From: Muricea muricata
Lineage: Eukaryota; Cnidaria; Anthozoa; Malacalcyonacea; Plexauridae
DNA length: 64,000 nucleotides
Reading direction: 5' to 3'
Assembly (NCBI GenBank): GCA_963855995.1
Contig: OY979717.1
Span: forward strand, 7,861,290 to 7,925,289
Shown here one piece after another: positions 1 through 32,986 of this stretch (position 1 is the stretch's first letter; each line of letters opens with the position of its first letter). A program made the position numbers and the translations under genes. Below the pieces are notes generated by a model. The model saw only the letters and a program-made list of their open reading frames with translations. It did not search any database and was not told where the DNA came from.

Positions 1-118
1 CAAGATGCATGCTGGTATAGCTTCAGTACAAGCAATTCCATATAAGGTATGATAAATTAATTATTTTGTACTGAATCTAAACCACAATGCACCATGCTTT
101 GTAGTTCAGAAAAGGTCT
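1..118. other. Non-repetitive flank left of the tRNA array
   Basis: These bases match no part of the 850-bp unit. From about 119 (atgatcacctgaaatt) the sequence follows the repeat, entering it in the spacer downstream of a tRNA-Lys. I see no gene, RNA or known element in the flank. Confidence 0.75.
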
Positions 119-219
119 ATGATCACCTGAAATTTTTTCCATATGGATCATAACATTTTGCCAATATCAACAAAAAATATTTGAACATGCAGACACGTTT
201 ATCCTACCAGGTTGAAAAT

Positions 220-292
220 CGCCCAACGTGGGGCTCGAACCCACGACCCTGAGATTAAGAGTCTCATGCTCTACCGACTGAGCTAGCCGGGC
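220..292 (-). tRNA. tRNA-Lys-CTT: tRNA-Lys(CTT), unit 1
   Basis: Consensus body. First Lys of the array; T4 terminator begins 2 nt after the gene. Confidence 0.94.
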
Positions 293-806
293 AACGGTGC
301 CCATCAAGGCGATGGGTACTCTAATAAAACATCACAAACAACGATAATTTACAAAATATTTAACAAAAAAGTAAATGTTGGTGTCCTGTGTGACAGAGAA
401 AAAGAAAACATTTAAATTATGACAGTATTCCGCTATCAATCGCGTTAAAACAACTATGGGCACAAAAAGGTAATGCAGAATAAATTTATTCTTGTCTTCA
501 ATGTTGAACAAGATCATCCTTCCTCTTTTTTGCCCAAAATTAGATTTAACCATCAATGGAATTTTCCATCCACATCAATGAAAGTAATTTCTCAGCATTA
601 ACAAAGCTTTTTTAAACATAGACGTTTGTTTTTACGACGTTGAAAATCTCGCCACGTGGGACTTAAACCAACAACCCTGAGATTAAGATTCTTAACTTCT
701 ACTGCCTAAGTTATCCGGCAACGGTGCCCACTTCGGCGATCAGTACTTAAGTATTCGTCCTAAAAAACAGTAATCCACAAAAATCTTAGGAAAACGTAGA
801 TGTTGG

Positions 807-879
807 TGCCGTGGGTGAGGGTCGAACTCACGACCTTTAGATTATGAGACTAACGCGCTACCTACTGCGCTAACAGGGC
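807..879 (-). pseudogene. tRNA-Met(CAT), degenerate acceptor, unit 1
   Basis: The body and CAT anticodon are kept. The 3' acceptor strand reads CCACGGC, giving mismatches at pairs 4:69 and 7:66. Twin of 3356. Confidence 0.7.
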
Positions 880-1079
880 TACTTGCACAAAGGTTAGTGT
901 AGAAAAATCTATTTTTTTTATCAAAGACTGAAGGCTAGATACTCATTTTGTCTTATCAAAAATTAGTTTCAATGATCACCTGAAATTTCTTCCATATGGA
1001 TCATAATAATTTGCCAATATCAACAATAAATATTTGAACAGACACGTTTATCCTACCATGTTGCAAATCGCCCAACGTG

Positions 1080-1090
1080 GGGCTCGAACC
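1080..1090 (-). promoter_or_regulatory. Internal B box of tRNA-Lys (representative)
   Basis: Reads GGTTCGAGCCC on the minus strand, a full match to the Pol III B-box consensus GGTTCGANNCC bound by TFIIIC. It is present in all consensus Lys copies and lost in the T-arm-deleted copies. Confidence 0.9.
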
Positions 1091-1122
1091 CACGACCCTG
1101 AGATTAAGAGTCTCATGCTCTA

Positions 1123-1134
1123 CCGACTGAGCTA
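1123..1134 (-). promoter_or_regulatory. Internal A box of tRNA-Lys (representative)
   Basis: Reads TAGCTCAGTCGG on the minus strand, fitting the Pol III A-box consensus TRGYNNARNNG. Confidence 0.9.
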
Positions 1135-1148
1135 GCCGGGCAACGGTG

Positions 1149-1165
1149 CCCATCAAGGCGATGGG
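1149..1165. other. Inverted repeat just upstream of tRNA-Lys (representative)
   Basis: cccatc-aaggc-gatggg, a perfect 6-bp stem with a 5-base loop, whose near edge is 8 bp from the first base of the Lys gene. It recurs beside many half-A Lys genes (some have gatagg, with one mismatch) and is broken at the half-B Lys pseudogene (cccacttcggcgatcagt). Confidence 0.6.
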
Positions 1166-1230
1166 TACTCTAATAAAACGTACCAAACAACGATAATTTA
1201 CAAAATTTTTGACCAAAAAGTCAATGCTGG

Positions 1231-1303
1231 TGTCCTGTGTGACAGAGAAAAACAAGAAAGTTAAAATATGACAGTATTCCGCTATCAATCGCGTAAAGAA
1301 CAC
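1231..1303 (-). pseudogene. tRNA-Met pseudogene, half A (representative)
   Basis: Aligned without gaps to the intact Met gene at 1657, about 45 of 73 positions agree by hand count, including the whole 3' end and the CAT anticodon. The D-arm/A box and the T-loop/B box are destroyed (the GTTCGA core becomes TTTTTCT), so no tRNA is expected. The neighbouring CCA is kept. The plus-strand complement of its anticodon supplies the ATG of a recurrent 60-codon ORF. Confidence 0.85.
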
Positions 1304-1498
1304 TATGGGAAGAAAAAGGTAATGCAGAATAAATTTATTCTAGTCTTCAATGCTGAACAAGATCATCCTACTTTTCTCTTGCCGAAAATTAGATTTAACC
1401 ATCAATGGAATTTTCCATCCACATCAATGGAAGTAATTTCTCAGCATTAACAAAGCGCTTTTAAACATAGACGTTAATTTTTACGACGTTGAAAATCT

Positions 1499-1568
1499 CG
1501 CCACGTGGGACACAAACCAACAACCCTGAGATTAAGATTCTTAAGTTCTACTGCCTGAGTTATCGGGC
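1499..1568 (-). pseudogene. tRNA-Lys pseudogene, half B (representative)
   Basis: A 70-bp relic of the Lys gene. The anticodon loop with CTT and the TCTCAGGG that follows are kept. The B box GGTTCGAGCC has become GGTTTGTGTC, the acceptor ends no longer pair, and the D-loop GG is lost. Both flanks align with those of the intact Lys gene, so it came by duplication of a genomic segment and not by retroposition. Confidence 0.88.
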
Positions 1569-1640
1569 AACGGTGCCCAGTTCGGCGATCAGTACTTAAG
1601 TAATTCGTCCTAAACAACAGTAATATAAAAAGATATAAGG

Positions 1641-1644
1641 AAAA
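1641..1644 (-). terminator. Pol III T4 terminator of tRNA-Met (representative)
   Basis: TTTT on the minus strand, 12 nt past the discriminator base. The ggaaaacg context is conserved at essentially every Met copy. Most units have a longer T-run (from aaaaatct or aaaaaaatct) a little further on as a possible backup. Confidence 0.75.
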
Positions 1645-1656
1645 CGTAGATGTTGG

Positions 1657-1729
1657 TGCCCTGTGTGAGGGTCGAACTCACGACCTTTAGATTATGAGAC
1701 TAACGCGCTACCTACTGCGCTAACAGGGC
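1657..1729 (-). tRNA. tRNA-Met-CAT: tRNA-Met(CAT), elongator type, unit 2 (reference copy)
   Basis: The 73-nt body folds as a cloverleaf: acceptor GCCCTGT/ACAGGGC fully paired, D-arm GCGC...GCGC, loop CTCATAA (anticodon CAT), variable loop AGGTC, T-arm GTGAG TTCGACC CTCAC, discriminator A. It resembles animal elongator tRNA-Met and not the initiator, which starts with A1:U72. The anticodon stem has the U31-U39 apposition also found in other animal elongator Met tRNAs. The genome encodes CCA directly after A73. T4 terminator at +13. Twin of 4205. Confidence 0.95.
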
Positions 1730-1918
1730 TACTGGCACAAAAGTTAGTCTAGAAAAATCTACTTTTTTTATCAAAGACTGAAGGCTAGCATACTAATTTT
1801 GTCTTATCAAAAATTAGTTTCAATGATCACTTGAAATTTCTTCCATCTGGATCATATTATTTTGCACGTGTCAACAAAAAATATTTAAACAGACACGTTT
1901 ATCCTACCATTTTTAAAT

Positions 1919-1991
1919 CGCCCAACGTGTGGCTCGAACCTACGACCCTGAGATTAAGAGTCTCATGCTCTACCGACTGAGCTAGCCGGGC
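1919..1991 (-). pseudogene. tRNA-Lys(CTT), degenerate T-stem, unit 3
   Basis: The T-stem GTAGG/CACAC has two mismatches; acceptor, D-arm and anticodon arm are intact. Twin of 4467. Confidence 0.65.
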
Positions 1992-2506
1992 AACGGTGCC
2001 CATCAATGCGATGGGTACTCTAATAAAACATCACAAACAACGACAATTTAAAAAATATTTAACAAAAAAGTAAATGTTGGTGTCCTGTGTGACAGAGAAA
2101 AACAAGACATTTAAATTATGATAGTATTCCGCTATCAATCGCGCTAAAACAAGTATAGGCACACAAAGGTAATGCAGAATAAATTTATTCTAGTCTTCAA
2201 TGTTGAACAAGATCATCCTACTTTTTTCTTGCCGAAATTTAGATTTAACCATCAATGGAATTTTTCATCCACATCAATGAAAGTAATTTCTCAGCATTAA
2301 CAAAGATTTTTTAAACATAGACATTTGTTTTTACGACGTTGAACATCTCGCCACGTGGGACTCAAATCAACAACCCTGAGATTAAGATTCTAAAGTTCTA
2401 CTGCCTGAGTTATCTGGCAACGGTGCCCACTTCGGCGATCAGTAGTTAAGTAATTCGTCCTAAACAACAGTAATCTACAAAAATCTAACGAAAACGTAGA
2501 TCTTGG

Positions 2507-2579
2507 TGCCCTTTGTGAGGGTCGAACTCACGACCTTTAAATTATGAGACTAACGCGCTACCTACTGCACTAACAGGGC
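2507..2579 (-). tRNA. tRNA-Met-CAT: tRNA-Met(CAT), variant, unit 3
   Basis: One acceptor mismatch (G6:A67, from ccctttg), D-stem C11 to T, and a change at the anticodon-stem base 41 region (ttaaattatg). Same family as 5055 and 5905. Confidence 0.7.
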
Positions 2580-2764
2580 TACTGGCACAAAGGTTAGTGT
2601 AGAAAAATCTATTTTTTTTATCAAAGACTGAAGGCTAGCATACTCATTTTGTCTTATCAAAAACTAGTTTCAATGATCACCTGAAATTTCTACCATATGG
2701 ATCATAATATTTTGCCAATATCAACAAAAAATATTTGAACAGAAACGTTTATCCTACCAGATTG

Positions 2765-2768
2765 AAAA
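2765..2768 (-). terminator. Immediate T4 terminator of a tRNA-Lys (unit 4 type)
   Basis: TTTT begins 2 nt after the Lys discriminator base (ttgaaaatcg context). Only the Lys copies at 220, 2770, 5318 and 6168 have it; elsewhere gcaaatcg leaves only three Ts. Confidence 0.65.
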
Positions 2769-2769
2769 T

Positions 2770-2842
2770 CGCCTAACGTAGAGCTCGAACCCACGACCCT
2801 GAGATTAAGAGTCTCATGCTCTACCGACTGAGCTAGCCGGGC
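2770..2842 (-). tRNA. tRNA-Lys-CTT: tRNA-Lys(CTT), variant, unit 4
   Basis: Acceptor 3' strand GTTAGGC gives one C:A mismatch; the T-stem keeps pairing through two G-U pairs. Immediate T4 terminator. Confidence 0.75.
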
Positions 2843-3355
2843 AACGGTACCCATCAAGGCGATGGGTACTCTAATAAAACGTACCAAACAACGATAATTT
2901 ACAAAATTTTTAACCAAAAAGTCAATGCTGGTGTCCTGTGTGACAGACAAAACAAGACAGTTAAAATATGACAGTATTCCGCTATCAATCGCGTAAAAAA
3001 CACTATGGGAAGAAAAAGGTAATGCAGAATAAATTTATTCTAGTCTTCAATGCTGAACAAGATCATCCTACTTTTCTCTTGCCGAAAATTAGATTTAACC
3101 ATCAATGGAATTTTCCATCCACATCAATGAAAGTAATTTCTCAGCATTAACAAAGCTTTTTTAAACATAGACGTTTGTTTTTACGACGTTGAAAATCTCG
3201 CCACGTGGGACTTAAACCAACAACCCTGAGATTAAGATTCTTAACTTCTACTGCCTAAGTTATCCGGCAACGGTGCCCACTTCGGCGATCAGTACTTAAG
3301 TATTCGTCCTAAAAAACAGTAATCCACAAAAATCTAAGGAAAACGTAGATGTTGG

Positions 3356-3428
3356 TGCCGTGGGTGAGGGTCGAACTCACGACCTTTAGTTTATGAGACT
3401 AACGCGCTACCTACTGCGCTAACAGGGC
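3356..3428 (-). pseudogene. tRNA-Met(CAT), degenerate acceptor, unit 4
   Basis: Same acceptor damage as its twin at 807. Here position 39 is A, restoring a 31:39 pair. Confidence 0.7.
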
Positions 3429-3617
3429 TACTTGCACAAAGGTTAGTGTAGAAAAATCTATTTTTTTTATCAAAGACTGAAGGCTAGATACTCACTTTGT
3501 CTTATCAAAAATTAGTTTCAATGATCACCTGAAATTTCTTCCATATGGATCATAATAATTTGCCAATATCAACACTAAATATTTGAACAGACACGTTTAT
3601 CCTACCATGTTGCAAAT

Positions 3618-3690
3618 CGCCCAACGTGGGGCGCGAACCCACGACCCTGAGATTAAGAGTCTCATGCTCTACCGACTGAGCTAGCCGGGC
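3618..3690 (-). tRNA. tRNA-Lys-CTT: tRNA-Lys(CTT), T-loop variant, unit 5
   Basis: A58 is C (loop TTCGCGC), which breaks the B-box core and removes the conserved T54-A58 pair. Otherwise consensus. Twin of 1069. No nearby T4. Confidence 0.65.
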
Positions 3691-4204
3691 AACGGTGCCC
3701 ATCAAGGCGATGGGTACTCTAATAAAACGTACCAAACAACGATAATTTACAAAATTTTTGACCAAAAAGTCAATGCTGGTGTCCTGTGTGACAGAGAAAA
3801 CAAGACAGTTAAAATATCACAGTATTCCGCTATCAATCGCGTAAAGAACACTATGGGAAGAAAAAGGTAATGCAGAATAAATTTATTCTAGTCTTCAATG
3901 CTGAACAAGATCATCCTACTTTTCTCTTGCCGAAAATTAGATTTAACCATCAATGGAATTTTCCATCCACATCAATGTAAGTAATTTCTCAGCATTAACA
4001 AAGCGCTTTTAAACATAGACGTTAATTTTTACGACGTTGAAAATCTCGCCACGTGGGACACAAACCAACAACCCTGAGATTAAGATTCTTAAGTTCTACT
4101 GCCTGAGTTATCGGGCAACGGTGCCCAGTTCGGCGATCAGTACTTAAGTAATTCGTCCTAAACAACAGTAATATAAAAAGATATAAGGAAAACGTAGATG
4201 TTGG

Positions 4205-4277
4205 TGCCCTGTGTGAGGGTCGAACTCACGACCTTTAGATTATGAGACTAACGCGCTACCTACTGCGCTAACAGGGC
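4205..4277 (-). tRNA. tRNA-Met-CAT: tRNA-Met(CAT), unit 5
   Basis: Consensus body with encoded CCA. Twin of 1657. Confidence 0.94.
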
Positions 4278-4466
4278 TACTGGCACAAAAGTTAGTCTAG
4301 AAAAATCTACTTTTTTTATCAAAGACTGAAGGCTAGCATACTAATTTTGTCTTATCAAAAATTAGTTTCAATGATCACTTGAAATTTCTTCCATCTGGAT
4401 CATATTATTTTGCACGTGTCAACAAAAAATATTTAAACAGACACGTTTATCCTACCATTTTTAAAT

Positions 4467-4539
4467 CGCCCAACGTGTGCCTCGAACCTACGACCCTGAG
4501 ATTAAGAGCCTCATGCTCTACCGACTGAGCTAGCCGGGC
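4467..4539 (-). pseudogene. tRNA-Lys(CTT), degenerate, unit 6
   Basis: T-stem mismatches as in its twin at 1919, plus further T-arm and anticodon-stem changes (cgtgtgcctcg, agagcctcatg). Confidence 0.65.
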
Positions 4540-5054
4540 AACGGTGCCCATCAATGCGATGGGTACTCTAATAAAACATCACAAACAACGACAATTTAAA
4601 AAATATTTAACAAAAAAGTAAATGTTGGTGTCCTGTGTGACAGAGAAAAACAAGACATTTAAATTATGATAGTATTCCGCTATCAATCGCGCTAAAACAA
4701 GTATGGGCACACAAAGGTAATGCAGAATAAATTTATTCTAGTCTTCAATGTTAAACAAGATCATCCTACTTTTTTCTTGCCGAAATTTAGATTTAACCAT
4801 CAATGGAATTTTTCATCCACATCAATGAAAGTAATTTCTCAGCATTAACAAAGATTTTTTAAACATAGACGTTTGTTTTTACGACGTTGAACATCTCGCC
4901 ACGTGGGACTCAAATCAACAACCCTGAGATTAAGATTCTAAAGTTCTACTGCCTGAGTTATCTGGCAACGGTGCCCACTTCGGCGATCAGTAGTTAAGTA
5001 ATTCGTCCTAAACAACAGTAATCTACAAAAATCTAACGAAAACGTAGATCTTGG

Positions 5055-5127
5055 TGCCCTTTGTGAGGGTCGAACTCACGACCTTTAGATTATGAGACTA
5101 ACGCGCTACCTACTGCACTAACAGGGC
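5055..5127 (-). tRNA. tRNA-Met-CAT: tRNA-Met(CAT), variant, unit 6
   Basis: Acceptor G6:A67 mismatch and D-stem C11 to T; otherwise consensus. Confidence 0.75.
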
Positions 5128-5317
5128 TACTAGCACAAAGGTTAGTGTAGAAAAATCTATTTTTTTTATCAAAGACTGAAGGCTAGCATACTCATTTTGT
5201 CTTATCAAAAATTAGTTTCAATGATCACCTGAAATTTCTACCATATGGATCATAATATTTTGCCAATATCAACAAAAAATATTTGAACAGACACATTTAT
5301 CCTACCAGATTGAAAAT

Positions 5318-5390
5318 CGCCTAACGTAGAGCTCGAACCCACGACCCTGAGACTAAGAGTCTCATGCTCTACGGACTGAGATAGCCGGGC
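5318..5390 (-). pseudogene. tRNA-Lys(CTT), degenerate D-arm, unit 7
   Basis: G10 is T, the D-loop GG is changed to CG, A38 is G, and the acceptor has the same C:A mismatch as unit 4. Immediate T4. Confidence 0.6.
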
Positions 5391-5904
5391 AACGGTACCC
5401 ATCAAGGCGATGGGTACTCTAATAAAACGTACCAAACAACGATAAATTACAAAATTTTTAACCAAAAAGTCAATGCTGGTGTCCTGTGTGACAGAGAAAA
5501 CAAGACAGTTAAAATATGACAGTATTCCGCTATCAATCGCGTAAAAAACACTATGGGAAGAAAAAGGTAATGCAGAATAAATTTATTCTAGTCTTCAATG
5601 CTGAACAAGATCATCCTACTTTTCTCTTGCCGAAAATTAGATTTAACCATCAATGGAATTTTCCATCCACATCAATGAAAGTAATTTCTCAGCATTAACA
5701 AAGCGTTTTTAAACATAGACGTCAATTTTTACGACGTTGAAAATCTCGCCACGTGGGACACAAACCAACAACCCTGAGATTAAGATTCTTAAATTCTACT
5801 GCCTGAGTTATCCGGCAACGGTGCCCACTTCGGCGATCAGTACTTAAGTAATTCGTCCTAAACAACAGTAATCTACAAAAATCTAACGAAAACGTAGATC
5901 TTGG

Positions 5905-5977
5905 TGCCCTTTGTGAGGGTCGAACTCACGACCTTTAGATTATGAGACTAACGCGCTACCTACTGCACTAACAGGGC
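5905..5977 (-). tRNA. tRNA-Met-CAT: tRNA-Met(CAT), variant, unit 7
   Basis: Same two changes as 5055, from which it is one 850-bp step away. Confidence 0.75.
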
Positions 5978-6167
5978 TACTAGCACAAAGGTTAGTGTAG
6001 AAAAATCTATTTTTTTTATCAAAGACTGAAGGCTAGCATACTCATTTTGTCTTATCAAAAATTAGTTTCAATGATCACCTGAAATTTCTACCATATGGAT
6101 CATAATATTTTGCCAATATCAACAAAAAATATTTGAACAGACACGTTTATCCTACCAGATTGAAAAT

Positions 6168-6240
6168 CGCCTAACGTAGAGCTCGAACCCACGACCCTGA
6201 GATTAAGAGTCTCATGCTCTACCGACTGAGCTAGCCGTGC
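6168..6240 (-). tRNA. tRNA-Lys-CTT: tRNA-Lys(CTT), acceptor variant, unit 8
   Basis: Acceptor 5' strand GCACGGC (position 3 mismatch) on top of the unit-4 C:A mismatch. Immediate T4. Confidence 0.6.
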
Positions 6241-6754
6241 AACGGTACTCATCAAGGCGATGGGTACTCTAATAAAACGTACCAAACAACGATAATTTAC
6301 AAAATTTTTAACCAAAAAGTCAATGCTGGTGTCCTGTGTGACAGAGAAAACAAGACAGTTAAAATATGACAGTATTCCGCTATCAATCGCGTAAAAAACA
6401 CTATGGGAAGAAAAAGGTAATGCAGAATAAATTTATTCTAGTCTTCAATGCTGAACAAGATCATCCTACTTTTCTCTTGCCGAAAATTAGATTTAACCAT
6501 CAATGGAATTTTCCATCCACATCAATGAAAGTAATTTCTCAGCATTAACAAAGCGTTTTTAAACATAGACGTTAATTTTTACGACGTTGAAAATCTCGCC
6601 ACGTGGGACACAAACCAACAACCCTGAGATTAAGATTCTTAAATTCTACTGCCTGAGTTATCCGGCAACGGTGCCCACTTCGGCGATCAGTACTTAAGTA
6701 ATTCGTCCTAAACAACAGTAATCTACAAAAATCTAACGAAAACGTAGATGTTAG

Positions 6755-6827
6755 TGCCCTGTGTGAGGGTCGAACTCACGACCTTTAGATTATGAGACTA
6801 ACGCGCTACCTACTGCGCTAACAGGGC
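6755..6827 (-). tRNA. tRNA-Met-CAT: tRNA-Met(CAT), unit 8
   Basis: Consensus body; the encoded CCA has become CTA. Confidence 0.93.
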
Positions 6828-7017
6828 TACTGGCACAAAAGTTAGTGTAGAAAAATATATCTTTTCTATAAATGACTGAATTCTAGCATACTAATTTTGT
6901 CTTATCAAAAATTAGTTTCAATGATCACCTGAAATTTCTTCCATATGGATCATAACATTTTGCTCATGTACACAAAAAATATTTAAACAGACACGTTCAT
7001 CCTACCATGTTGCAAAT

Positions 7018-7090
7018 CGCCCAACGTGGGGTTCGAACCCACGACTCTGAGATTAAGAGTCTCATGCTCTACCGACTGAGCTAGCCGGGC
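7018..7090 (-). tRNA. tRNA-Lys-CTT: tRNA-Lys(CTT), unit 9
   Basis: Loop changes only: T-loop TTCGAAC and variable loop G45 to A. All stems are intact. T6 class terminator. Confidence 0.88.
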
Positions 7091-7606
7091 CACGGTGCCC
7101 ATCAAAGCGATGGGTACTCCAATAAAACGTACTAAACAACGATAATTTAAAAAAATAATAAACAAAAAAGTAAATGTTGGTGTCCTGTGTGACAGAGAAA
7201 AACAAGACATTTAAATTATGATAGTATTCCGCTATCAATCGCGCTAAAACAACTATGGGCACACAAAGGTAATGCAGAATAATTTTATTCTAGTCTTCAA
7301 TGTTGAACAAGATCATCCTACTTTTTTCTTGCCGAAATTTAGATTTAACCATCAATGGAATTTTTCATCCACATCAATGAAAGTAATTTCTCAGCATTAA
7401 CAAAGATTTTTTGAACATAGACGTTTGTTTTTACGACGTTGAACATCTCGCCACGTGGGACTCATACCTACAACCCTGAGATTAAGATTCTTAAGTTCTA
7501 CTGCCTGAGTTATCTGGCAACGGTGCCCACTTCGGCGATCAGTAGTTTAGTAATTCGTCCTAAACAACAGTAATCTACAAAAATCTAAGGAAAACGTAGA
7601 TGTTGG

Positions 7607-7679
7607 TGCGCTGTGTGAGGGTCGAACTCACGACCTTTAGATTATGAGACTAACGCGCTACCTGCTGCACTAACAGGGC
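7607..7679 (-). tRNA. tRNA-Met-CAT: tRNA-Met(CAT), variant, unit 9
   Basis: Acceptor C3:C70 mismatch and D-arm changes (cctgctgcac). Confidence 0.65.
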
Positions 7680-7820
7680 TACTGGCACAAAGGTTAGTGT
7701 ACAAAAATCTACTTTTTTTATCAAAGACTGAAGGCTAGCATACTAATTTTGTCTTATCAAAAATTATTTTCAATGATCACCTGAAATTTCTTCCATATAG
7801 ATCATAACATTTTGCTCATG

Positions 7821-7876
7821 GAACCCACGACCCTGAGATTAAGAGTCTGATGCTCTACCGACTGAGCTACTTGGGC
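7821..7876 (-). pseudogene. tRNA-Lys lacking its 3' end, unit 10
   Basis: Keeps the 5' acceptor strand (changed to GCCCAAG), D-arm, anticodon CTT and half of the T-arm. The rest of the T-arm, the 3' acceptor strand and downstream flank are deleted; the break joins tttgctcatg to gaacccacg. This explains the short unit. Confidence 0.85.
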
Positions 7877-8395
7877 AACGGTGCCCATCAAGGCGATGGG
7901 TACTCCAATAAAACATACCAAACAACGATAATTTAAAAAAATATTTAACAAAAAAGTAAATAATGGTGTGCTGTGTTACCAAGAAAAACAAGACATTTAA
8001 ATTATCACAGTATTCCGCTATCAATCGCGTTAAAACAACTATGGCCACAAAAAGGTAATGAAAAATAAATTTATTCTTGTCTTCAATGTTGAACAAGATC
8101 ATCCTACTTTTTTCTTGCCGAAAATTAGATTTAACCATCAATGGAATTTTCCATCCACATCAATGAAAGTAATTTCTCAGCATTAACAAAGCGTTTTTAA
8201 ACATAGACGTTAATTTTTACGAGGTTTAAAATCTCGCCACGTTTGACACAAACCATTAACCCTGAGATTAAGATTCTTAAGTTCTACTGCCTGAGTTATC
8301 CGGAAACGGTGCCCACTTCGGCGACCAGTACTTAAGTAATTCGTCGTCCTAAACAACAGTAATCTAAAAAAATCTAAGGAAAACGTAGATGTTGG

Positions 8396-8468
8396 TGCCC
8401 TGTGTGAGGGTCGAACTCACGACCTTTAGCTTATGAGACTAACGCGCTACCTACTGCGCTAACAGGGC
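8396..8468 (-). tRNA. tRNA-Met-CAT: tRNA-Met(CAT), unit 10
   Basis: Single change: U39 is G. Encoded CCA present. Confidence 0.88.
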
Positions 8469-8656
8469 TACTGGCACAAAGGTTAGTGTAGAAAAATCTA
8501 TTTTTTTATCAAAGACTGAAGCTAGCATACTAAGTTTGTCTTATCAAAAATTAGTTTCAATGATCACTTGAAATTTCTTCAATATGGATCATAATATTTT
8601 TCCAATATCAACAAAAAATATTCGAACAGACACGTTTATCCTACCATGTTGCAAAT

Positions 8657-8729
8657 CGCCCAACGTGGGGCTCGAACCCACGACCCTGAGATTAAGAGTC
8701 TCATGCTCTACCGACTGAGCTAGCCATGC
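8657..8729 (-). tRNA. tRNA-Lys-CTT: tRNA-Lys(CTT), acceptor variant, unit 11
   Basis: Acceptor 5' strand GCATGGC leaves a mismatch at position 3 and an added wobble pair. Same variant at 12048, 27245 and 32326. T6 class. Confidence 0.7.
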
Positions 8730-9244
8730 AACGGTGCCAATCAAGCCGATGGGTACTCTAATAAAACGTACCAAACAACGATAATTTAAAAAATTTTTGA
8801 CCAAAAAGTCAATGCTATTGTCCTGTGTGACAGAGAAAAACAAGACAGTTAAAATATGACAGTATTCCGCTATCAATCGCGTAAAGAACACTATGGGAAG
8901 AAAAAGGTAATGAAGAATAAATTTATTCTAGTCTTCAATGCTGAACAAGATCATCCTACTTTTCTCTTGCCGAAAAATAGATTTAACCATCAATGGAATT
9001 TTCCATCCACATCAATGAAAGTAATTTCTCAGCATTAACAAAGCGTTTTTAAACATAGACGTTAATTTTTACGACGTTTAAAATCTCGCCACGTGGGACA
9101 CAAACCATTAACCCTGAGATTAAGATTCTTAAGTTCTACTGCCTGAGTTATCCGGCAACGGTGCCCACTTCGGGAATCAGTACTTAAGTAATTCGTCCTA
9201 AACAACAGTAATATAAAAAAATCTAAGGAAAACGTAGATGTTGA

Positions 9245-9317
9245 TGCCCTGTGTGAGGGTCGAACTCACGACCTTTAGATTATGAGACTAACGCGCTACC
9301 TACTGCGCTAACAGGGC
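9245..9317 (-). tRNA. tRNA-Met-CAT: tRNA-Met(CAT), unit 11
   Basis: Consensus body; the trailing CCA is TCA here. Confidence 0.93.
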
Positions 9318-9507
9318 TACTTGCACAAAGGTTAGTGTAAAAAAATCTATTTTTTTTATCAAAGACTGAAGGCTAGCATACTCATTTTGTCTTATCAAAA
9401 ATTAGTTTCAATGATCACCTGAAATTTCTTCCATATGGATAATAATAATTTGCCAATATCAACAATAAACATTTGAACAGACACGTTTATCCTACCATGT
9501 TGCAAAT

Positions 9508-9580
9508 CGCCCAACCTGGGGCTCGAACCCACGACCCTGATATTAAGAGTCTCATGCTCTACCGACTGAGCTAGCCGGGC
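9508..9580 (-). tRNA. tRNA-Lys-CTT: tRNA-Lys(CTT), variant, unit 12
   Basis: C40 is A (anticodon-stem mismatch) and one change at the T-stem/acceptor boundary (ccaacctgg). No nearby T4. Twin of 12898. Confidence 0.65.
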
Positions 9581-10095
9581 AACGGTGCCCATCAAGGCGA
9601 TGGGTACTCTAATCAAACGTCACAAACAACGATAATTTACAAAATATTTAACAAAAAAATAAATGTTGGTGTGCTGTGTTACAAAGAAAAACAAGACATT
9701 TAAATTATGACATTATTCCGCTATCAATCGCGTTAAAACAACTATGGCCTCAAAAAGGTAATGCAGATTAAATTTATTCTTGTCTTCAATGTTGAAACAG
9801 ATCATCCTACTTTTTTCTTGCCGAAAATTAGATTTAACTATCAATGGAATTTTCCATCCACATCAATGAAAGTAATTTCTCAGCATTAACAAAGCGTTTT
9901 TAAACATAGACGTTAATTTTTACGACGTTGAAAATCTCGCCACGTGGGACACAAACCATTAACCCTGAGATTAAGATTCTTAAGTTCTACTGCCTGAGTT
10001 ATCCGGCAACGGTGCCCACTTCGGCGACCAGTACTTAAGTAATTCGTCCTAAACAACAGTAATCTAAAAAAATCTAAGGAAAACGTAGATGTTGG

Positions 10096-10168
10096 TGCCC
10101 TGTGTGAGGGTCGAACTCACGACCTTTAGATTATGAGACTAACGCGCTACCTACTGCGCTAACAGGGC
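10096..10168 (-). tRNA. tRNA-Met-CAT: tRNA-Met(CAT), unit 12
   Basis: Consensus body with encoded CCA. Confidence 0.94.
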
Positions 10169-10357
10169 TACTGGCACAAAGGTTAGTGTAGAAAAATCTA
10201 TTTTTTTATCAAAGACTGAAGGCTAGCATACTAATTTTGTCTTATCAAAAATTAGTTTCAATGATCACCTGAAATTTCTTCCATATGGATCATAATATTT
10301 TGCCAATATCAACAAAAAATATTTGAACAGACACGTTTATCCTACCATGTTGCAAAT

Positions 10358-10421
10358 CGCCGAACGTGGGGCTCTTATTAAGATTAAGAGTCTCATGCTC
10401 TACCGACTGAGCTAGCCGGGC
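10358..10421 (-). pseudogene. T-arm-less tRNA-Lys, unit 13
   Basis: 64 bp. The T-arm is replaced by a short AT-rich run (cttattaag), removing the B box. D-arm, anticodon CTT and most of the acceptor remain. Founder-type copy of a seven-member family. Confidence 0.85.
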
Positions 10422-10935
10422 AACGGTGCCCATCAAGGCGATGGGTACTCTAATAAAACGTATTAAACAACGATAATTTAAAAAATTTTTGACCAAAAAG
10501 TCAATGCTGGTGTCCTGTGTGACAGAGAAAAACAAGACAGTTAAAATATGACAGTATTCCGCTATTAATCGCGTAAAGAACACTATCGGAAGAAAAAGGT
10601 AATGCAGAATAAATTTATTCTAGTCTTCAATGCTGAACAAGATCATCCTACTTTTCTCTTGCCGAAAATTAGATTTAACCATCAATGGAATTTTCCATCC
10701 ACATCAATGAAAGTAATTTCTCAGCATTAAAAAAGCGTTTTTAAACATAGACGTTAATTTTTACGACGTTGAAAATCTCGCCACGTGGGACACAAACCAT
10801 TAACCTGAGATTAAGATTCTTAAGTTCTACTGCCTGAGTTATCCGGCAACGGTGCCCAGTTCGGCGATCAGTACTTAAGTAATTCGTCCTAAACAACAGT
10901 AATCTAAAAAAATCTAAGGAAAACGTAGATGTTGG

Positions 10936-11008
10936 TGCCCTGTGTGAGGGTCGAATTCACGACCTTTAGACTATGAGACTAACGCGCTACCTACTGCGCT
11001 AACAGGGC
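10936..11008 (-). tRNA. tRNA-Met-CAT: tRNA-Met(CAT), variant, unit 13
   Basis: A38 is G and the T-stem has an A53:C61 mismatch (gaattcacg). Same variant at 14325 and 25283. Confidence 0.65.
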
Positions 11009-11195
11009 TACTTGCACAAAGGTTAGTGTAGAAAAATCTATTTTTTTATCAAAGACTGAAGGCTAGAATACTAATTTTGTCTTATCAAAAACTAGTTTCA
11101 ATGATCACCTAAAATTCTTCCATATGGATCATAACATTTTGCCCATGTCAAAAAAAAAATTTAAACAGAGACGTTCATCCTACCATGTTGCAAAT

Positions 11196-11268
11196 CGCCC
11201 AACGTGGGGCTCGAACCCACGACCCTGAGATTAAGAGTCTCATGCTCTACCGACTGAGCTAGCCGGGC
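11196..11268 (-). tRNA. tRNA-Lys-CTT: tRNA-Lys(CTT), unit 14
   Basis: Consensus body; long T-run class terminator. Confidence 0.95.
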
Positions 11269-11786
11269 AACGGTGGCCATCAAGGCGATGGGTACTCTAA
11301 TAAAACGTCACAAACAACGATAATTTACAAAATATTTAACAAAAAAATAAATGTTGGTGTGCTGTGTTACAAAGAAAAACAAGACATTTAAATTATGATA
11401 GTATTCCGCTATCATACGCGCTAAAACAACTATGAGCACACAAAGGTAATGCAGAAATAATTTATTCTAGTCTTCAATGTTGAACAAGATCATCCAACTT
11501 TTCTCTTGCCGAAAATTAGATTTAACCATCAATGGAATTTTTCATCCACATCAATGAAAGTAATTTTTCAGCATTAACAAAGCGTTTTTAAACATAGACG
11601 TTAATTTTTACGACGTTGAAAATCTCGCCACGTTTGACACAAACCATTAACCCTGAGATTAAGATTCTTAAGTTCTACTGCCTGAGTTATCCGGCAACGG
11701 TGCCCACTTCGGCGACCAGTACTTAAGTAATTCGTCGTCCTAAACAACAGTAATCTAAAAAAATCTAAGGAAAACGTAGATGTTGG

Positions 11787-11859
11787 TGCCCTGTGTGAGG
11801 GTCGAACTCACGACCTTTAGGTTATGAGACTAACGCGCTACCTACTGCGCTAACAGGGC
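11787..11859 (-). tRNA. tRNA-Met-CAT: tRNA-Met(CAT), unit 14
   Basis: Single change: U39 is C. Confidence 0.88.
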
Positions 11860-12047
11860 TACTGGCACAAAGGTTAGTGTAGAAAAATCTATTTTTTTAT
11901 CAAAGACTGAAGCTAGCATACTAAGTTTGTCTTATCAAAAATTAGTTTCAATGATCACTTGAAATTTCTTCAATATGGATCATAATATTTTTCCAATATC
12001 AACAAAAAATATTCGAACAGACACGTTTATCCTACCATGTTGCAAAT

Positions 12048-12120
12048 CGCCCAACGTGGGGCTCGAACCCACGACCCTGAGATTAAGAGTCTCATGCTCT
12101 ACCGACTGAGCTAGCCATGC
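12048..12120 (-). tRNA. tRNA-Lys-CTT: tRNA-Lys(CTT), acceptor variant, unit 15
   Basis: GCATGGC acceptor; twin of 8657 at +3391. Confidence 0.7.
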
Positions 12121-12635
12121 AACGGTGCCAATCAAGCCGATGGGTACTCTAATAAAACGTACCAAACAACGATAATTTAAAAAATTTTTGACCAAAAAGT
12201 CAATGCTATTGTCCTGTGTGACAGAGAAAAACAAGACAGTTAAAATATGACAGTATTCCGCTATCAATCGCGTAAAGAACACTATGGGAAGAAAAAGGTA
12301 ATGCAGAATAAATTTATTCTAGTCTTCAATGCTGAACAAGATCATCCTACTTTTCTCTTGCCGAAAAATAGATTTAACCATCAATGGAATTTTCCATCCA
12401 CATCAATGAAAGTAATTTCTCAGCATTAACAAAGCGTTTTTAAACATAGACGTTAATTTTTACGACGTTTAAAATCTCGCCACGTGGGACACAAACCATT
12501 AACCCTGAGATTAAGATTCTTAAGTTCTACTGCCTGAGTTATCCGGCAACGGTGCCCACTTCGGGAATCAGTACTTAAGTAATTCGTCCTAAACAACAGT
12601 AATATAAAAAAATCTAAGGAAAACGTAGATGTTGG

Positions 12636-12708
12636 TGCCCTGTGTGAGGGTCGAACTCACGACCTTTAGATTATGAGACTAACGCGCTACCTATTGCGCT
12701 AACAGGGC
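12636..12708 (-). tRNA. tRNA-Met-CAT: tRNA-Met(CAT), unit 15
   Basis: Single D-loop change (G15 to A). Confidence 0.9.
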
Positions 12709-12897
12709 TACTTGCACAAAGGTTAGTGTAAAAAAATCTATTTTTTTATCAAAGACTGAAGGCTAGCATACTCATTTTGTCTTATCAAAAATTAGTTTCA
12801 ATGATCACCTGAAATTTCTTCCATATGGATAATAATAATTTGCCAATATCAACAATAAACATTTGAACAGACACGTTTATCCTACCATGTTGCAAAT

Positions 12898-12970
12898 CGC
12901 CCAACGTGGGGCTCGAACCCACGACCCTGATATTAAGAGTCTCATGCTCTACCGACTGAGCTAGCCGGGC
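12898..12970 (-). tRNA. tRNA-Lys-CTT: tRNA-Lys(CTT), variant, unit 16
   Basis: Only the C40 to A anticodon-stem mismatch. Twin of 9508. Confidence 0.7.
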
Positions 12971-13485
12971 AACGGTGCTCATCAAGGCGATGGGTACTCT
13001 AATCAAACGTCACAAACAACGATAATTTACAAAATATTTAACAAAAAAATAAATGTTGGTGTGCTGTGTTACAAAGAAAAACAAGACATTTAAATTATGA
13101 CATTATTCCGCTATCAATCGCGTTAAAACAACTATGGCCACAAAAAGGTAATGCAGATTAAATTTATTCTTGTCTTCAATGTTGAACAAGATCATCCTAC
13201 TTTTTTCTTGCCGAAAATTAGATTTAACCATCAATGGAATTTTCCATCCACATCAATGAAAGTAATTTCTCAGCATTAACAAAGCGTTTTTAAACATAGA
13301 CGTTAATTTTTACGACGTTGAAAATCTCGCCACGTGGGACACAAACCATTAACGCTGAGATTAAGATTCTTAAGTTCTACTGCCTGAGTTATGCGGCAAC
13401 GGTGCCCACTTCGGCGACCAGTACTTAAGTAACTCGTCCTAAACAACAGTAATCTAAAAAAATCTAAGGAAAACGTAGATGTTGG

Positions 13486-13558
13486 TGCCCTGTGTGAGGG
13501 TCGAACTCACGACCTTTAGATTATGAGACTAACGCGCTACCTACTGCGCTAACAGGGC
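13486..13558 (-). tRNA. tRNA-Met-CAT: tRNA-Met(CAT), unit 16
   Basis: Consensus body with encoded CCA. Confidence 0.94.
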
Positions 13559-13747
13559 TACTGGCACAAAGGTTAGTGTAGAAAAATCTATTTTTTTATC
13601 AAAGACTGAAGGCTAGCATACTAATTTTGTCTTATCAAAAATTAATTTCAATGATCACCTGAAATTTCTTCCATATGGATCATAATATTTTGCCAATATC
13701 AACAAAAAATATTTGAACAGACACGTTTATCCTACCATGTTGCAAAT

Positions 13748-13811
13748 CGCCCAACGTGGGGCTCTTATTAAGATTGAGAGTCTCATGCTCTACCGACTGA
13801 GCTAGCCGGGC
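13748..13811 (-). pseudogene. T-arm-less tRNA-Lys relic, unit 17
   Basis: 64 bp, T-arm replaced as in unit 13. In addition the anticodon reads CTC (from attgagag). Confidence 0.85.
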
Positions 13812-14324
13812 AACGGTGCCCATCAAGGTGATGGGTACTCTAATAAAACGTACCAAACAACGATAATTTACAAAATTTTTGACCAAAAAGTCAATGCTGG
13901 TGTCCTTTGTGACAGAGAAAAACAAGACAGTTAAAATATGACAGTATTCCGCTATCAATCGCGTAAAGAACACTATGGGAAGAAAAAGGTAATGCAGAAT
14001 AAATTTATTCTAGTCTTCAATGCTGAACAAGATCATCCTACTTTTCTCTTGCCGAAAATTAGATTTAACCATCAATGGAATTTTCCATCCACATCAATGA
14101 AAGTAATTTCTCAGCATTAACAAAGCGTTTTTAAACATAGACGTTAATTTTTACGACGTTGAAAATCTCGCCACGTGGACACAAACCATTAACCTGAGAT
14201 TAAGATTCTTAAGTTCTACTGCCTGAGTTATCCGGCAACGGTGCCCAGTTCGGCGATCAGTACTTAAGTAATTCGTCCTAAACAACAGTAATATAAAAAA
14301 ATCTAAGGAAAACGTAGATGTTGG

Positions 14325-14397
14325 TGCCCTGTGTGAGGGTCGAATTCACGACCTTTAGACTATGAGACTAACGCGCTACCTACTGCGCTAACAGGGC
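14325..14397 (-). tRNA. tRNA-Met-CAT: tRNA-Met(CAT), variant, unit 17
   Basis: A38G and A53:C61 mismatch; twin of 10936 (+3389) and 25283 (+10958). Confidence 0.65.
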
Positions 14398-14587
14398 TAC
14401 TTGCACAAGGGTTAGTGTAGAAAAATCTATTTTTTTTATCAAAGACTGAAGGCTAGCATACTCATTTTGTCTTATCAAAAAATTGTTTCAATGATCACCT
14501 GAAATTTCTTCCATATGGATAAAAATAATTTGCCAATATCAACACTAAATATTTGAACAGACACGTTTATTCTACCATGTTGCAAAT

Positions 14588-14660
14588 CGCCCAACGTGGG
14601 GCTCGAACCCACGACCCTGAGATTAAGAGTCTCATGCTCTACCGACTGAGCTAGCCGGGC
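14588..14660 (-). tRNA. tRNA-Lys-CTT: tRNA-Lys(CTT), unit 18
   Basis: Consensus body; no T4 nearby (aacactaaat class). Confidence 0.94.
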
Positions 14661-15175
14661 AACGGTGCCCGTCAAGGCGATAGGTACTCTAATAAAACAT
14701 CACAAACAACGATAATTTAAAAAATATTAAACAAAAAAGTAAATGTTGGTGTCGTGTGTGACAGAGAAAAACAAGACATTTAAATTATGATAGTATTCCG
14801 CTATCATACGCGCTAAAACAACTATGAGCACACAAAGGTAATGCAGAATAAATTTATTCTAGTCTTCAATGTTGAAGGAGATCATCCAACTTTTCTCTTG
14901 CCTAAAATTAGATTTAACCATCAATGGAATTTTCCATCCACATGAATGAAAGTAATTTCTCAGCATTAACAAAGCGTTTTTAAACATAGACGTTAATTTT
15001 TACGAGGTTGAAAATCTCGCCACGTGGGACACAAACCATTAACCCTGAGATTAAGATTCTTAAGTTCTACTGCCTGAGTTATCCGGCAACGGTGCCCAGT
15101 TCGGCGATCAGTATTTAAGTAATTCGTCCTAAACAACAGTAATCTAAAAAAATCTAAGGAAAACGTACATGTTGG

Positions 15176-15248
15176 TGCCCTGTGTGAGGGTCGAACTCAC
15201 GACCTATAGATTATGAGACTAACGCGCTACCTACTGCGCTAACAGGGT
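15176..15248 (-). tRNA. tRNA-Met-CAT: tRNA-Met(CAT), weakened, unit 18
   Basis: G1 is A (A1:C72 mismatch) and A43 is T (loss of pair 27:43). Same at 17695 and 23595. Confidence 0.55.
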
Positions 15249-15436
15249 TACTGGCACAAAGGTTAGTGTAGAAAAATCTATTTTTTTATCAAAGACTGAA
15301 GCTAGCATACTAAGTTTGTCTTATCAAAAATTAGTTTCAATGATCACCTGAAATTTCTTCCATATGGATCATAATATTTTTCCAATATCAACAAAAAATA
15401 TTTGAACAGACACGTTTATCCTACCATGTTGCAAAT

Positions 15437-15509
15437 CGCCCAACGTGGGGCTCGAACCCACGACCCTGAGATTAAGAATCTCATGCTCTACCGACTGAGC
15501 TAGCCGGGC
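15437..15509 (-). tRNA. tRNA-Lys-CTT: tRNA-Lys(CTT), unit 19
   Basis: Only C32 to U in the anticodon loop, a tolerated position. T6 class. Confidence 0.9.
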
Positions 15510-16024
15510 AACGGTGCCCATCAAGGCGATGGGTACTCTAATAAAACGTACCAAACAACGATAATTTACAAAATTTTTGACCAAAAAGTCAATGCTGGTG
15601 TCCTGTGTGACAGAGAAAAACAAGACAGTTAAAATATGACAGTATTCCGCTATCAATCGCGTAAAGAACACTATGGGAAGAAAAAGGTAATGCAGAATAA
15701 ATTTATTCTAGTCTTCAATGCTGAACAAGATCATCCTACTTTTCTCTTGCCGAAAATTAGATTTAACCATCAATGGAATTTTCCATCCACATCAATGAAA
15801 GTAATTTCTCAGCATTAACAAAGCGCTTTTAAACATAGACGTTAATTTTTACGACGTTGAAAATCTTGCCACGTGGGACACAAACCAACAACCCTGAGAT
15901 TAAGATTCTTAAGTTCTACTGCCTGAGTTATCGGGCAACGGTGCCCAGTTCGGCGATCAGTACTTAAGTAATTCGTGCTAAACAACAGTAATCTAAAAAA
16001 ATCTAAGGAAAACGTAGATGTTGG

Positions 16025-16097
16025 TGCCGTGTGTTAGGGTCGAAATCACGACCTTTAGATTATGAGACAAACGCGCTACCTACTGCGCTAAAAGGAC
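16025..16097 (-). pseudogene. tRNA-Met relic, unit 19
   Basis: Changes in both acceptor strands (GTCCTTT against ACACGGC), T-stem, T-loop edge and anticodon stem. CAT kept. Twin of 21925. Confidence 0.8.
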
Positions 16098-16286
16098 TAC
16101 TGCCACAAAGGTTAGGTTAGAAAAATCTATTTTTTTTATCAAAGACTGAAGGCTAGAATACTAATTTTGTCTTATCAAAAACTAGTTTCAATGATCATCT
16201 AAAATTCTTCCATATGGATCACAACATTTTGCCCATGTCAAAAAAAAATATTTAAACAGAGACGTTCATCCTACCATGTTGCAAAT

Positions 16287-16359
16287 CGCCCAACGTGGGG
16301 CTCGAACCCACGACCCTGAGATTAAGAGTCTGATGCTCTACCGACTGAGCTAGCCGGGC
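16287..16359 (-). tRNA. tRNA-Lys-CTT: tRNA-Lys(CTT), variant, unit 20
   Basis: G28 is C, making a C28:C42 mismatch in the anticodon stem; otherwise consensus. Long T-run class. Twin of 22187. Confidence 0.75.
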
Positions 16360-16873
16360 AACGGAGCCCATCAAGGCGATGGGTACTCTAATAAAACGTC
16401 ACAAACAACGATAATTTACAAAATATTTAACAAAAAAATAAATGTTGGTGTGCTGTGTTACAAAGAAAAACAAGACATTTAAATTATGACATTATTCCGC
16501 TATCAATCGCGTTAAAACAACTATGGCCACAAAAAGGTAATGCAGATTAAATTTATTCTTGTCTTCAATGTTGAACAAGATCATCCTACTTTTTTCTTGC
16601 CGAAAATTAGATTTAACCATCAATGGAATTTTCCATCCACATCAATGAAAGTAATTTCTCAGCATTAACAAAGCGTTTTTAAACATAGACGTTAATTTTT
16701 ACGACGTTGAAAATCTCGCCACGTGGGACACAAACCATTAACCTGAGATTAAGATTCTTAAGTTCTACTGCCTGAGTTATCCGGCAACGGTGCCCACTTC
16801 GGCGATCAGTACTTAAGTAATTCGTCCTAAACAACAGTAATCTAAAAAAATCTAAGGAAAACGTTGATGTTGG

Positions 16874-16946
16874 TGCCCTGTAAGAGGGTCGAACTCACGA
16901 CCTTTAGATTATGAGACTAACGCGCTACCTACTGCGCTAACAGGGC
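16874..16946 (-). tRNA. tRNA-Met-CAT: tRNA-Met(CAT), weakened, unit 20
   Basis: T-stem 3' strand reads CTCTT, giving two mismatches. The 5' flank is missing about 35 bp (gggctacaggggctatcaaag). Twin of 22774. Confidence 0.55.
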
Positions 16947-17106
16947 TACAGGGGCTATCAAAGACTGAAGGCTAGAATACTCATTTTGTCTTATCAAAAA
17001 TTAGTTTCAATGATGACCTGAAATTTCTTCCATATGGATAATAATAATTTGCCAATATCAACAATAAATATTTGAACAGACACGTTTATCCTACCATGGT
17101 TCAAAT

Positions 17107-17179
17107 CGCCCAACGTGGGGCTCGAACCCACGACCCTGAGATTAAGAGTCTCATGCTCTACCGACTGACCTAGCCGGGC
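17107..17179 (-). tRNA. tRNA-Lys-CTT: tRNA-Lys(CTT), variant, unit 21
   Basis: One D-stem mismatch (C11 to G). No nearby T4. Twin of 23007. Confidence 0.7.
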
Positions 17180-17694
17180 AACGGTGCCCATCAAGGCGAT
17201 AGGTACTCTAATAAAACATCACAAACAACGATAATTTAAAAAATATCAAACAAAAAAGTAAATGTTGGTGTCGTGTGTGACAGAGAAAAACAAGACATTT
17301 AAATTATGATAGTATTCCGCTATCATACGCGCTAAAACAACTATGAGCACACAAAGGTAATGCAGAATAAATTTATTCTAGTCTTCAATGTTGAAGGAGA
17401 TCATCCAACTTTTCTCTTGCCTAAAATTAGATTTAACCATCAATGGAATTTTCCATCCACATGAATGAAAGTAATTTCTCAGCATTAACAAAGCGTTTTT
17501 AAACATAGACGTTAATTTTTACGAGGTTGAAAATCTCGCCACGTGGGACACAAACCATTAACCCTGAGATTAAGATTCTTAAGTTCTACTGCCTGAGTTA
17601 TCCGGCAACGGTGCCCAGTTCGGCGATCAGTATTTAAGTAATTCGTCCTAAACAACAGTAATCTAAAAAAATCTAAGGAAAACGTACATGTTGG

Positions 17695-17767
17695 TGCCCT
17701 GTGTGAGGGTCGAACTCACGACCTATAGATTATGAGACTAACGCGCTACCTACTGCGCTAACAGGGT
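17695..17767 (-). tRNA. tRNA-Met-CAT: tRNA-Met(CAT), weakened, unit 21
   Basis: A1:C72 and 27:43 mismatches, as at 15176. Confidence 0.55.
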
Positions 17768-17955
17768 TACTGGCACAAAGGTTAGTGTAGAAAAATCTAT
17801 TTTTTTATCAAAGACTGAAGCTAGCATACTAAGTTTGTCTTATCAAAAATTAGTTTCAATGATCACCTGAAATTTCTTCCATATGGATCATAATATTTTT
17901 CCAATATCAACAAAAAATATTTGAACAGACACGTTTATCCTACCATGTTGCAAAT

Positions 17956-18028
17956 CGCCCAACGTGGGGCTCGAACCCACGACCCTGAGATTAAGAATCT
18001 CATGCTCTACCGACTGAGCTAGCCGGGC
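17956..18028 (-). tRNA. tRNA-Lys-CTT: tRNA-Lys(CTT), unit 22
   Basis: C32U only. Twin of 23856. Confidence 0.9.
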
Positions 18029-18543
18029 AACGGTGCCCATCAAGGCGATGGGTACTCTAATAAAACGTACCAAACAACGATAATTTACAAAATTTTTGAC
18101 CAAAAAGTCAATGCTGGTGTCCTGTGTGACAGAGAAAAACAAGACAGTTAAAATATGACAGTATTCCGCTATCAATCGCGTAAAGAACACTATGGGAAGA
18201 AAAAGGTAATGCAGAATAAATTTATTCTAGTCTTCAATGCTGAACAAGATCATCCTACTTTTCTCTTGCCAAAAATTAGATTTAACCATCAATGGAATTT
18301 TCCATCCACATCAATGAAAGTAATTTCTCAGCATTAACAAAGCGCTTTTAAACATAGACGTTAATTTTTACGACGTTGAAAATCTCGCCACGTGGGACAC
18401 AAACCAACAACCCTGAGATTAAGATTCTTAAGTTCTACTGCCTGAGTTATCGGGCAACGGTGCCCAGTTCGGCGATCAGTACTTAAGTAATTCGTGCTAA
18501 ACAACAGTGATCTACAAAAATCTAAGGAAAACGTAGATGTTGG

Positions 18544-18616
18544 TGCCCTGTGTGAGGGTCGAACTCACGACCTTTAGATTATGAGACTAACGCGCTACCT
18601 ACTGCGCTAACAGGGC
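18544..18616 (-). tRNA. tRNA-Met-CAT: tRNA-Met(CAT), unit 22
   Basis: Consensus body with encoded CCA. Twin of 24444. Confidence 0.94.
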
Positions 18617-18805
18617 TACTGGCACAAAGGTTAGTGTAGAAAAATCTATTTTTTTATCAAAGACTGAAGGCTAGCATACTAATTTTGTCTTATCAAAAAT
18701 TAATTTCAATGATCACCTGAAATTTCTTCCATATGGATCATAATATTTTGCCAATATCAACAAAAAATATTTGAACAGACACGTTTATCCTACCATGTTG
18801 CAAAT

Positions 18806-18869
18806 CGCCCAACGTGGGGCTCTTATTAAGATTGAGAGTCTCATGCTCTACCGACTGAGCTAGCCGGGC
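18806..18869 (-). pseudogene. T-arm-less tRNA-Lys relic, unit 23
   Basis: 64 bp; anticodon reads CTC as at 13748. Twin of 24706. Confidence 0.85.
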
Positions 18870-19384
18870 AACGGTGCCCATCAAGGCGATGGGTACTCTA
18901 AGAAAACGTACCAAACAACGATAATTTCAAAAAATATTTAACAAAAAAGTAAATAATGGTGTGCTGTGTTAACAAGAAAAACAAGACATTTAAATTATGA
19001 CAGTATTCCGCTATCAATCGCGTTAAAACAACTATGGCCACAAAAAGGTAATGCAGAATAAATTTATTCTTGTCTTCAATGTTGAACAAGATCATCCTAC
19101 TTTTTTCTTGCCGAAAATTAGATTTAACCATCAATGGAATTTTCCATCCACATCAATGAAAGTAATTTCTCAGCATTAACAAAGCGTTTTTAAACATAGA
19201 CGTTAATTTTTACGAGGTTGAAAATCTCGCCACGTGGGACACAAACCATTAACCTGAGATTAAGATTCTTAAGTTCTACTGCCTGAGTTATCCGGCAACA
19301 ATGCCCACTTCGGCGATCAGTACTTAAGTAATTCGTCCTAAACAACAGTAATCTAAAAAAATCTAAGGAAAACGTAGATGTTGG

Positions 19385-19457
19385 TGCCCTGTGTGAGGGT
19401 CGAACTCACGACCTTTAGATTATGAGACTAACGCGCTACCTACTGCGCTAACAGGGC
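19385..19457 (-). tRNA. tRNA-Met-CAT: tRNA-Met(CAT), unit 23
   Basis: Consensus body with encoded CCA. Twin of 28683. Confidence 0.94.
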
Positions 19458-32913: not shown

Positions 32914-32986
32914 TGCCGTGTGTTAGGGTCGAACTCACGACCTTTAGATTATGAGACAAACGCGCTACCTACTGCGCTAAAAGGAC
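32914..32986 (-). pseudogene. tRNA-Met relic, unit 39
   Basis: Twin of 27833. Confidence 0.75.

Follow-up and report, generated by a model that had tools for sequence, protein, structure and literature searches.

The 64,000-nucleotide stretch of the Muricea muricata genome analysed here (the window; C2:7,861,290-7,925,289, where C2 is contig OY979717.1 of the 453-Mb assembly GCA_963855995.1) is occupied almost entirely by an array of tandem minus-strand transfer RNA (tRNA) genes for lysine (Lys) and methionine (Met). Its 850-bp repeat unit is a dimer, in which each half carries one live gene and a dead copy of the other. ARAGORN finds 127 tRNA genes in the window, all on one strand, of which 126 have Lys-CTT or Met-CAT anticodons and 1 has an asparagine (Asn) anticodon; at 34027-34101, CTT is replaced by GTT (Asn) as the anticodon of a Lys-type gene. 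With 200 kb rightward and 20 kb leftward of the window examined, the minus-strand array spans ~229 kb, from about C2:7,860,464 to 8,089,233. Its left part (1..35964, minus strand) extends 0.8 kb beyond the left window edge, ending in a divergent unit, and includes, at its left end, a stretch of ~0.1 kb without an array match; its right part (40866..64000, minus strand) reaches about C2:8,089,233, past which no array match was found in the sequence fetched there. Alignment delimits 67 complete units in the window, which measure 789 to 852 bp, and 247 regular units bearing tRNA genes lie head to tail across the array. Of these, 97 are not fully readable in the assembly, and counts for live Lys rest on the readable units. 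All 159 exact copies of a 31-base Met core in the assembly lie in the array region, as do all 196 exact copies of a dead-Lys core. We take the tRNAs of the array to be of animal type.

Read 5′ to 3′ on the minus strand, the unit holds a live Met, a dead Lys, a dead Met and a live Lys gene, and all features below share that strand. The unit near the left edge of the window illustrates the layout. Half B comprises a live elongator-type tRNA-Met (CAT; 1657..1729, 68.9 bits to the Rfam tRNA model), a Met-Lys spacer (1569..1656), a dead tRNA-Lys (1499..1568; 57 identities and 13 mismatches to live Lys) and a Lys-Met spacer (1302..1498). Half A follows with a dead tRNA-Met (1231..1301), its own Met-Lys spacer (1142..1230) and a live tRNA-Lys (CTT; 1069..1141, 65.1 bits), and both live genes here equal the array consensus. 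Adjacent units are separated by the half-A type of Lys-Met spacer (1730..1917). The dead Met shows 46 identities and 25 mismatches to live Met, close to the 45 or so of 73 positions counted by hand in the preliminary description. Within the half-B Lys-Met spacer, a 75-bp block (consensus positions 275-350, window about 1380-1455) varies less than any other part of the unit, with a diversity of 0.0135 compared to 0.059 overall. This block has no accepted RNA-family match, the best being U6atac at 12.7 bits (cut-off 33, E 0.75).

The two halves share a common origin that includes their spacers. The preliminary description had read the unit as a dimer and proposed aligning its halves against shuffled controls. 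In consensus comparisons of half A with half B, the Met-Lys spacers agree at 70 positions and differ at 15 (82%) and the Lys-Met spacers agree at 134 and differ at 51 (72%), and in both cases none of 1000 dinucleotide shuffles was as good; mismatched spacer pairings do not align above such shuffles. Genes and spacers also match in order, orientation and spacing, as had been described. Across aligned sites, half A and half B differ by 24% overall, whereas the 67 units in the window differ from one another by 5.9% on average and by 9.4% at most. Because 24% exceeds any difference between units, the split of the halves is older than the common ancestor of the window units. The array therefore shows diverged monomers within a more homogeneous multimer, as in a higher-order satellite repeat, and its units have been homogenised among themselves. 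Monomeric flanks are common around higher-order satellite repeats without strictly defining them; none was found here, with dimer units standing at both array ends. The 67 units gave no sign of conversion tracts between halves: among 98 diagnostic sites, other-half states never formed a run longer than 1, although single ones are found at 21 sites of half B and 19 of half A.

The dimer is the unit being copied across the array. Across the array, 253 live-Met anchors give 252 intervals, of which 247 measure 780-880 bp and none measures 425 bp. The other five are longer, at 996, 3493, 3564, 4532 and 5753 bp; their interiors were examined in part, and the longest contains a retrotransposon. Moreover, distances between units computed from the A half and from the B half, with the live-Lys region left out of the calculation, correlate at 0.61 within a unit, at 0.24 with the neighbouring unit and at no more than 0.06 in 200 permutations. 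The sequence extending from the live Met gene to the live Lys gene therefore tends to be co-inherited, and the proposal that the dimer became the amplifying unit is borne out on both counts.

Complementary dead genes are fixed in all 247 regular units, in agreement with the assignment of live Lys and dead Met to half A and of live Met and dead Lys to half B. One copy of each gene has decayed, which, like the shared ancestry of the halves, would be expected from tandem duplication and random loss. The tRNA model gives no match at E<=10 within 1200-1600, where the dead Met and dead Lys of the illustrated unit lie, and neither an A box nor a B box was found in either dead gene (0/247 for each). 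The live state is never seen in the 67 window units at 18 of 21 dead-Met differences and at 12 of 13 dead-Lys differences. Dead Met is the most diverse of eight regions of the unit (0.106 in 67 units, 0.100 in 247). A run of four T residues lies within 30 nt downstream of dead Lys in 243 of the 247 units, and downstream of dead Met and of live Met in all of them.

Divergence bears on the timing of the losses. Dead and live genes differ at 34 of 141 positions and the spacers of the two halves at 64 of 265 (66 mismatches in 270 when realigned with other end-gap costs), giving a Jukes-Cantor distance of 0.291 for both. If the live genes are ancestral, the rate of change per branch would have been about twice as high in the dead genes as in the spacers, because equal divergence accrued on one branch in the genes and on two in the spacers; 21 of the 34 dead-gene changes go from G/C to A/T. 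The losses look early, and divergence does not resolve their order relative to each other.

A further indication of age comes from the unit at the left (3′) array end, which has the same dimer layout and is 87% identical to the consensus. Its live Met and live Lys score 67.3 and 40.5 bits on the tRNA model. Its dead Lys (20.3 bits, E 0.21) and dead Met (16.5 bits, E 2.3) align with the model at full length below the cut-off of 29, and ARAGORN labels the former as tRNA-Lys. Compared to the consensus, the end unit differs at 6 of 146 positions in live genes, at 17 of 146 in dead genes (p 0.028 vs live) and at 50 of 406 in spacers (p 0.004 vs live). Since this divergent unit already carries them, the dimer and both losses predate the present units.

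Among the live genes, Met retains an A box in 212 and a B box in 231 of 247 units, and Lys in 128 and 118, respectively, of 150 readable units. Copies identical to the consensus number 37 of 247 for Met and 20 of 150 readable for Lys. In the window, 17 Met and 19 Lys genes are perfect, one or both genes are altered in most units, and 26 Met and 29 Lys states occur when same-length deletions are pooled as one state. Because the consensus genes are intact tRNAs, we infer that selection bears on the output of the whole array rather than on single copies. Two blocks, 15249-18616 and 21149-24516, lie 5.9 kb apart and have gene states in common as well as two identical unit pairs, which may be read as a sign of recent multi-unit duplication.

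The preliminary description had further called the halves interdependent, a term that is not supported for single units: only 2 of the 67 have both genes perfect, and defects are not significantly exclusive. Perfect copies are distributed as 2 units with both, 15 with Met only, 17 with Lys only and 33 with neither (one-sided Fisher p 0.069; a count as low arises in 6 of 66 circular shifts), and a looser structural test yields 14, 17, 14 and 22, respectively (one-sided p 0.78; the count is as low or lower in 50 of 66 shifts). Complementary loss thus does not recur significantly at unit level in the window. Furthermore, tRNAs act in trans, which bears against interdependence at this level.

We consider it probable that a Met-Lys unit lying beside its own copy underwent complementary loss, with doubling and loss in either order, and that the resulting 850-bp dimer was then amplified. 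An ancestral two-gene unit of about 425 bp, with tRNA-Met followed by tRNA-Lys, would have come to adjoin its own copy; Met would have been lost from one half and Lys from the other, and the dimer would then have become the unit copied and deleted by unequal exchange. The ancestral monomer presumably carried two working genes, since for each of them one half has an intact copy and the other half a recognisable one at the corresponding position. With two copies per gene, loss of either copy would cost nothing, and random loss of one copy per gene would give a complementary outcome in half of all cases, so that the pattern would need no special force. A complementary dimer that dropped a half would lose a gene, and a working monomer could be restored only by crossover in the Met-Lys spacer; the dimer would therefore tend to persist, as in a neutral ratchet, with selection then acting on the total output of good tRNA from the array and not on each unit. 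We advance only tentatively, as a rather unlikely extension, that such a ratchet operates in the array, that the array is the main or only source of elongator tRNA-Met with its consensus kept by selection while most copies change, and that the same step may be starting among the 850-bp units.

Of duplication followed by complementary loss, as first described, the common origin of the halves and their complementary decay are borne out, whereas either doubling or loss may have come first. The reverse order has a substantial chance of being correct, if somewhat short of even: an array of 425-bp monomers would have come first and decayed at random, and one complementary adjacent pair would have been amplified to replace the rest. 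The present array decays likewise one level up, as the many Met and Lys states in the 67 window units attest, and the identical unit pairs 5.9 kb apart and recurring unit types also speak for it, whereas no monomer occurs at either array end or among the live-Met intervals. It is improbable that the dead halves are retained for another function, such as protein binding or holding the register of the array; the least variable block does sit between dead Lys and dead Met (0.0135 vs 0.059), but it lacks an accepted RNA-family match and dead Met is the most diverse region of the unit. That a single-gene Lys unit and a single-gene Met unit were fused, the dead genes reflecting chance or general tRNA similarity, is very unlikely given the spacer homology between the halves, which none of 1000 shuffles equalled. 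We give the least credence of all to an assembly artefact of collapsed or mis-joined repeats. Tandem arrays are difficult to assemble, but 850 bp is short relative to a long read, the dimer is visible inside every regular unit, and there is an ordered arrangement of unit types, insertions and divergent end unit, with nothing matching the array in the sequence fetched past its right end.

Several observations weigh against amplification of a complementary-loss dimer as the origin of the array, or against its corollaries. A monomer with two intact genes did not turn up: two exact patterns gave 0 matches in the readable bases of the assembly. Exact patterns also gave 0 matches in viral contigs and in bacterial and archaeal genomes, which are unsuitable collections for this purpose, and no monomer was seen at either array end. 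The dead-gene scores of the end unit are weak, and other families match the same stretch below their cut-offs (E 0.031 to 7.8). Plain identities of its dead genes to the live ones are mixed (end unit vs consensus, 52 vs 50 for dead Met and 56 vs 57 for dead Lys). Live-gene diversity in the window units is 0.044 compared to an average of 0.059, a difference that is not significant (24% of circular shifts are as low), and segregating sites in the live genes are no fewer than elsewhere (88th percentile); constraint on single copies is therefore not visible. Finally, the output of live Lys is uncertain, because 151 of 156 readable units lack a run of four T residues within 30 nt downstream of it; in 42 of the 67 window units the first such run follows at 38 nt.

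Between the two parts of the array in the window lies a retrotransposon of the long interspersed nuclear element (LINE) type (35965..40865, minus strand), inserted at the 5′ boundary of one dead tRNA-Met. It appears as a 4902-step gap between array matches, and one of its ends is a TTA-repeat. One of its open reading frames matches the reverse transcriptase family PF00078 (E 3.7e-24), a second matches two endonuclease models, both below their cut-offs, and a third has no match.

Outside the array, a genome-wide search for the Met core with up to 3 mismatches returned 251 matches on the reverse strand, 250 of them in the array region, and 59 on the forward strand, none of them there. A lone gene on C1, another sequence of the assembly, accounts for one of the reverse matches. 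Three guessed variants of the core gave 0 forward matches, so none of them accounts for the 59 forward ones. C1 also bears a second large array, with tRNA-model matches from 68,263,855 to 68,744,526, which is built of 346-bp units with a single tRNA-Lys (TTT) gene; 28 genes were found in 2 x 5 kb read there, two of which have an undetermined anticodon and two the anticodon TTA.

Giant tRNA arrays are already known. A search of literature titles and abstract openings showed none naming a complementary-loss tRNA dimer among the matches listed, which is weak evidence of absence as subscription literature is thinly covered. Complementary loss is generally encountered as an event involving a pair of gene copies, or in mitochondrial genomes. 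In duplication-degeneration-complementation, two copies retain complementary parts, whereas in the present array whole tRNA genes, not the sub-functions of one gene, are split between the halves of a unit.

The closest systems are compared here as far as the available portions of the reports go, and none of these portions on tRNA arrays or clusters has a complementary-loss dimer as the unit. Large tRNA clusters appear in a survey of eukaryotes (PMC2888827), and large tRNA arrays have been described in Hydractinia and Nematostella, where the available text on non-coding RNA arrays does not describe a dimer unit with complementary dead genes (PMC11067881). Entamoeba arrays resemble the present one in having several tRNA genes per unit, with concerted evolution proposed for their homogenisation; however, their authors report no clear evidence for non-functional pseudogene copies, and the part of the report available describes no decayed dimer (PMC2652664). 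The Arabidopsis SYY cluster, whose unit has two Tyr cassettes (Y1 and Y2; PMC12308677), and the tRNA-Cys cluster, with units of about 420 bp (PMC10701932), likewise combine tandem tRNA units, pseudogene copies and unit variants. In the accessible parts of these two reports, however, pseudogenes are enriched in flanking variable regions or at the border, without a fixed complementary pattern. Human 1q23.3 is also an animal tandem tRNA array, with 9-43 units per allele, but its unit is 7.3 kb long, with five tRNA genes and 98% identity (PMC4041453). Mitochondrial tandem duplication and random loss similarly doubles a block of genes and then loses copies (PMC4223735, PMC4430869). Unlike that process, the one seen here is nuclear, and it yielded a tandem unit now present in over 240 copies; a more divergent unit has been retained at the array end. 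Given the dimer array and its divergent end unit, related species could be used to test in which order duplication, loss and spread took place. The array may also represent an essential gene family held by selection on the whole, as 37 of 247 live Met genes match the consensus, which is nevertheless an intact tRNA.
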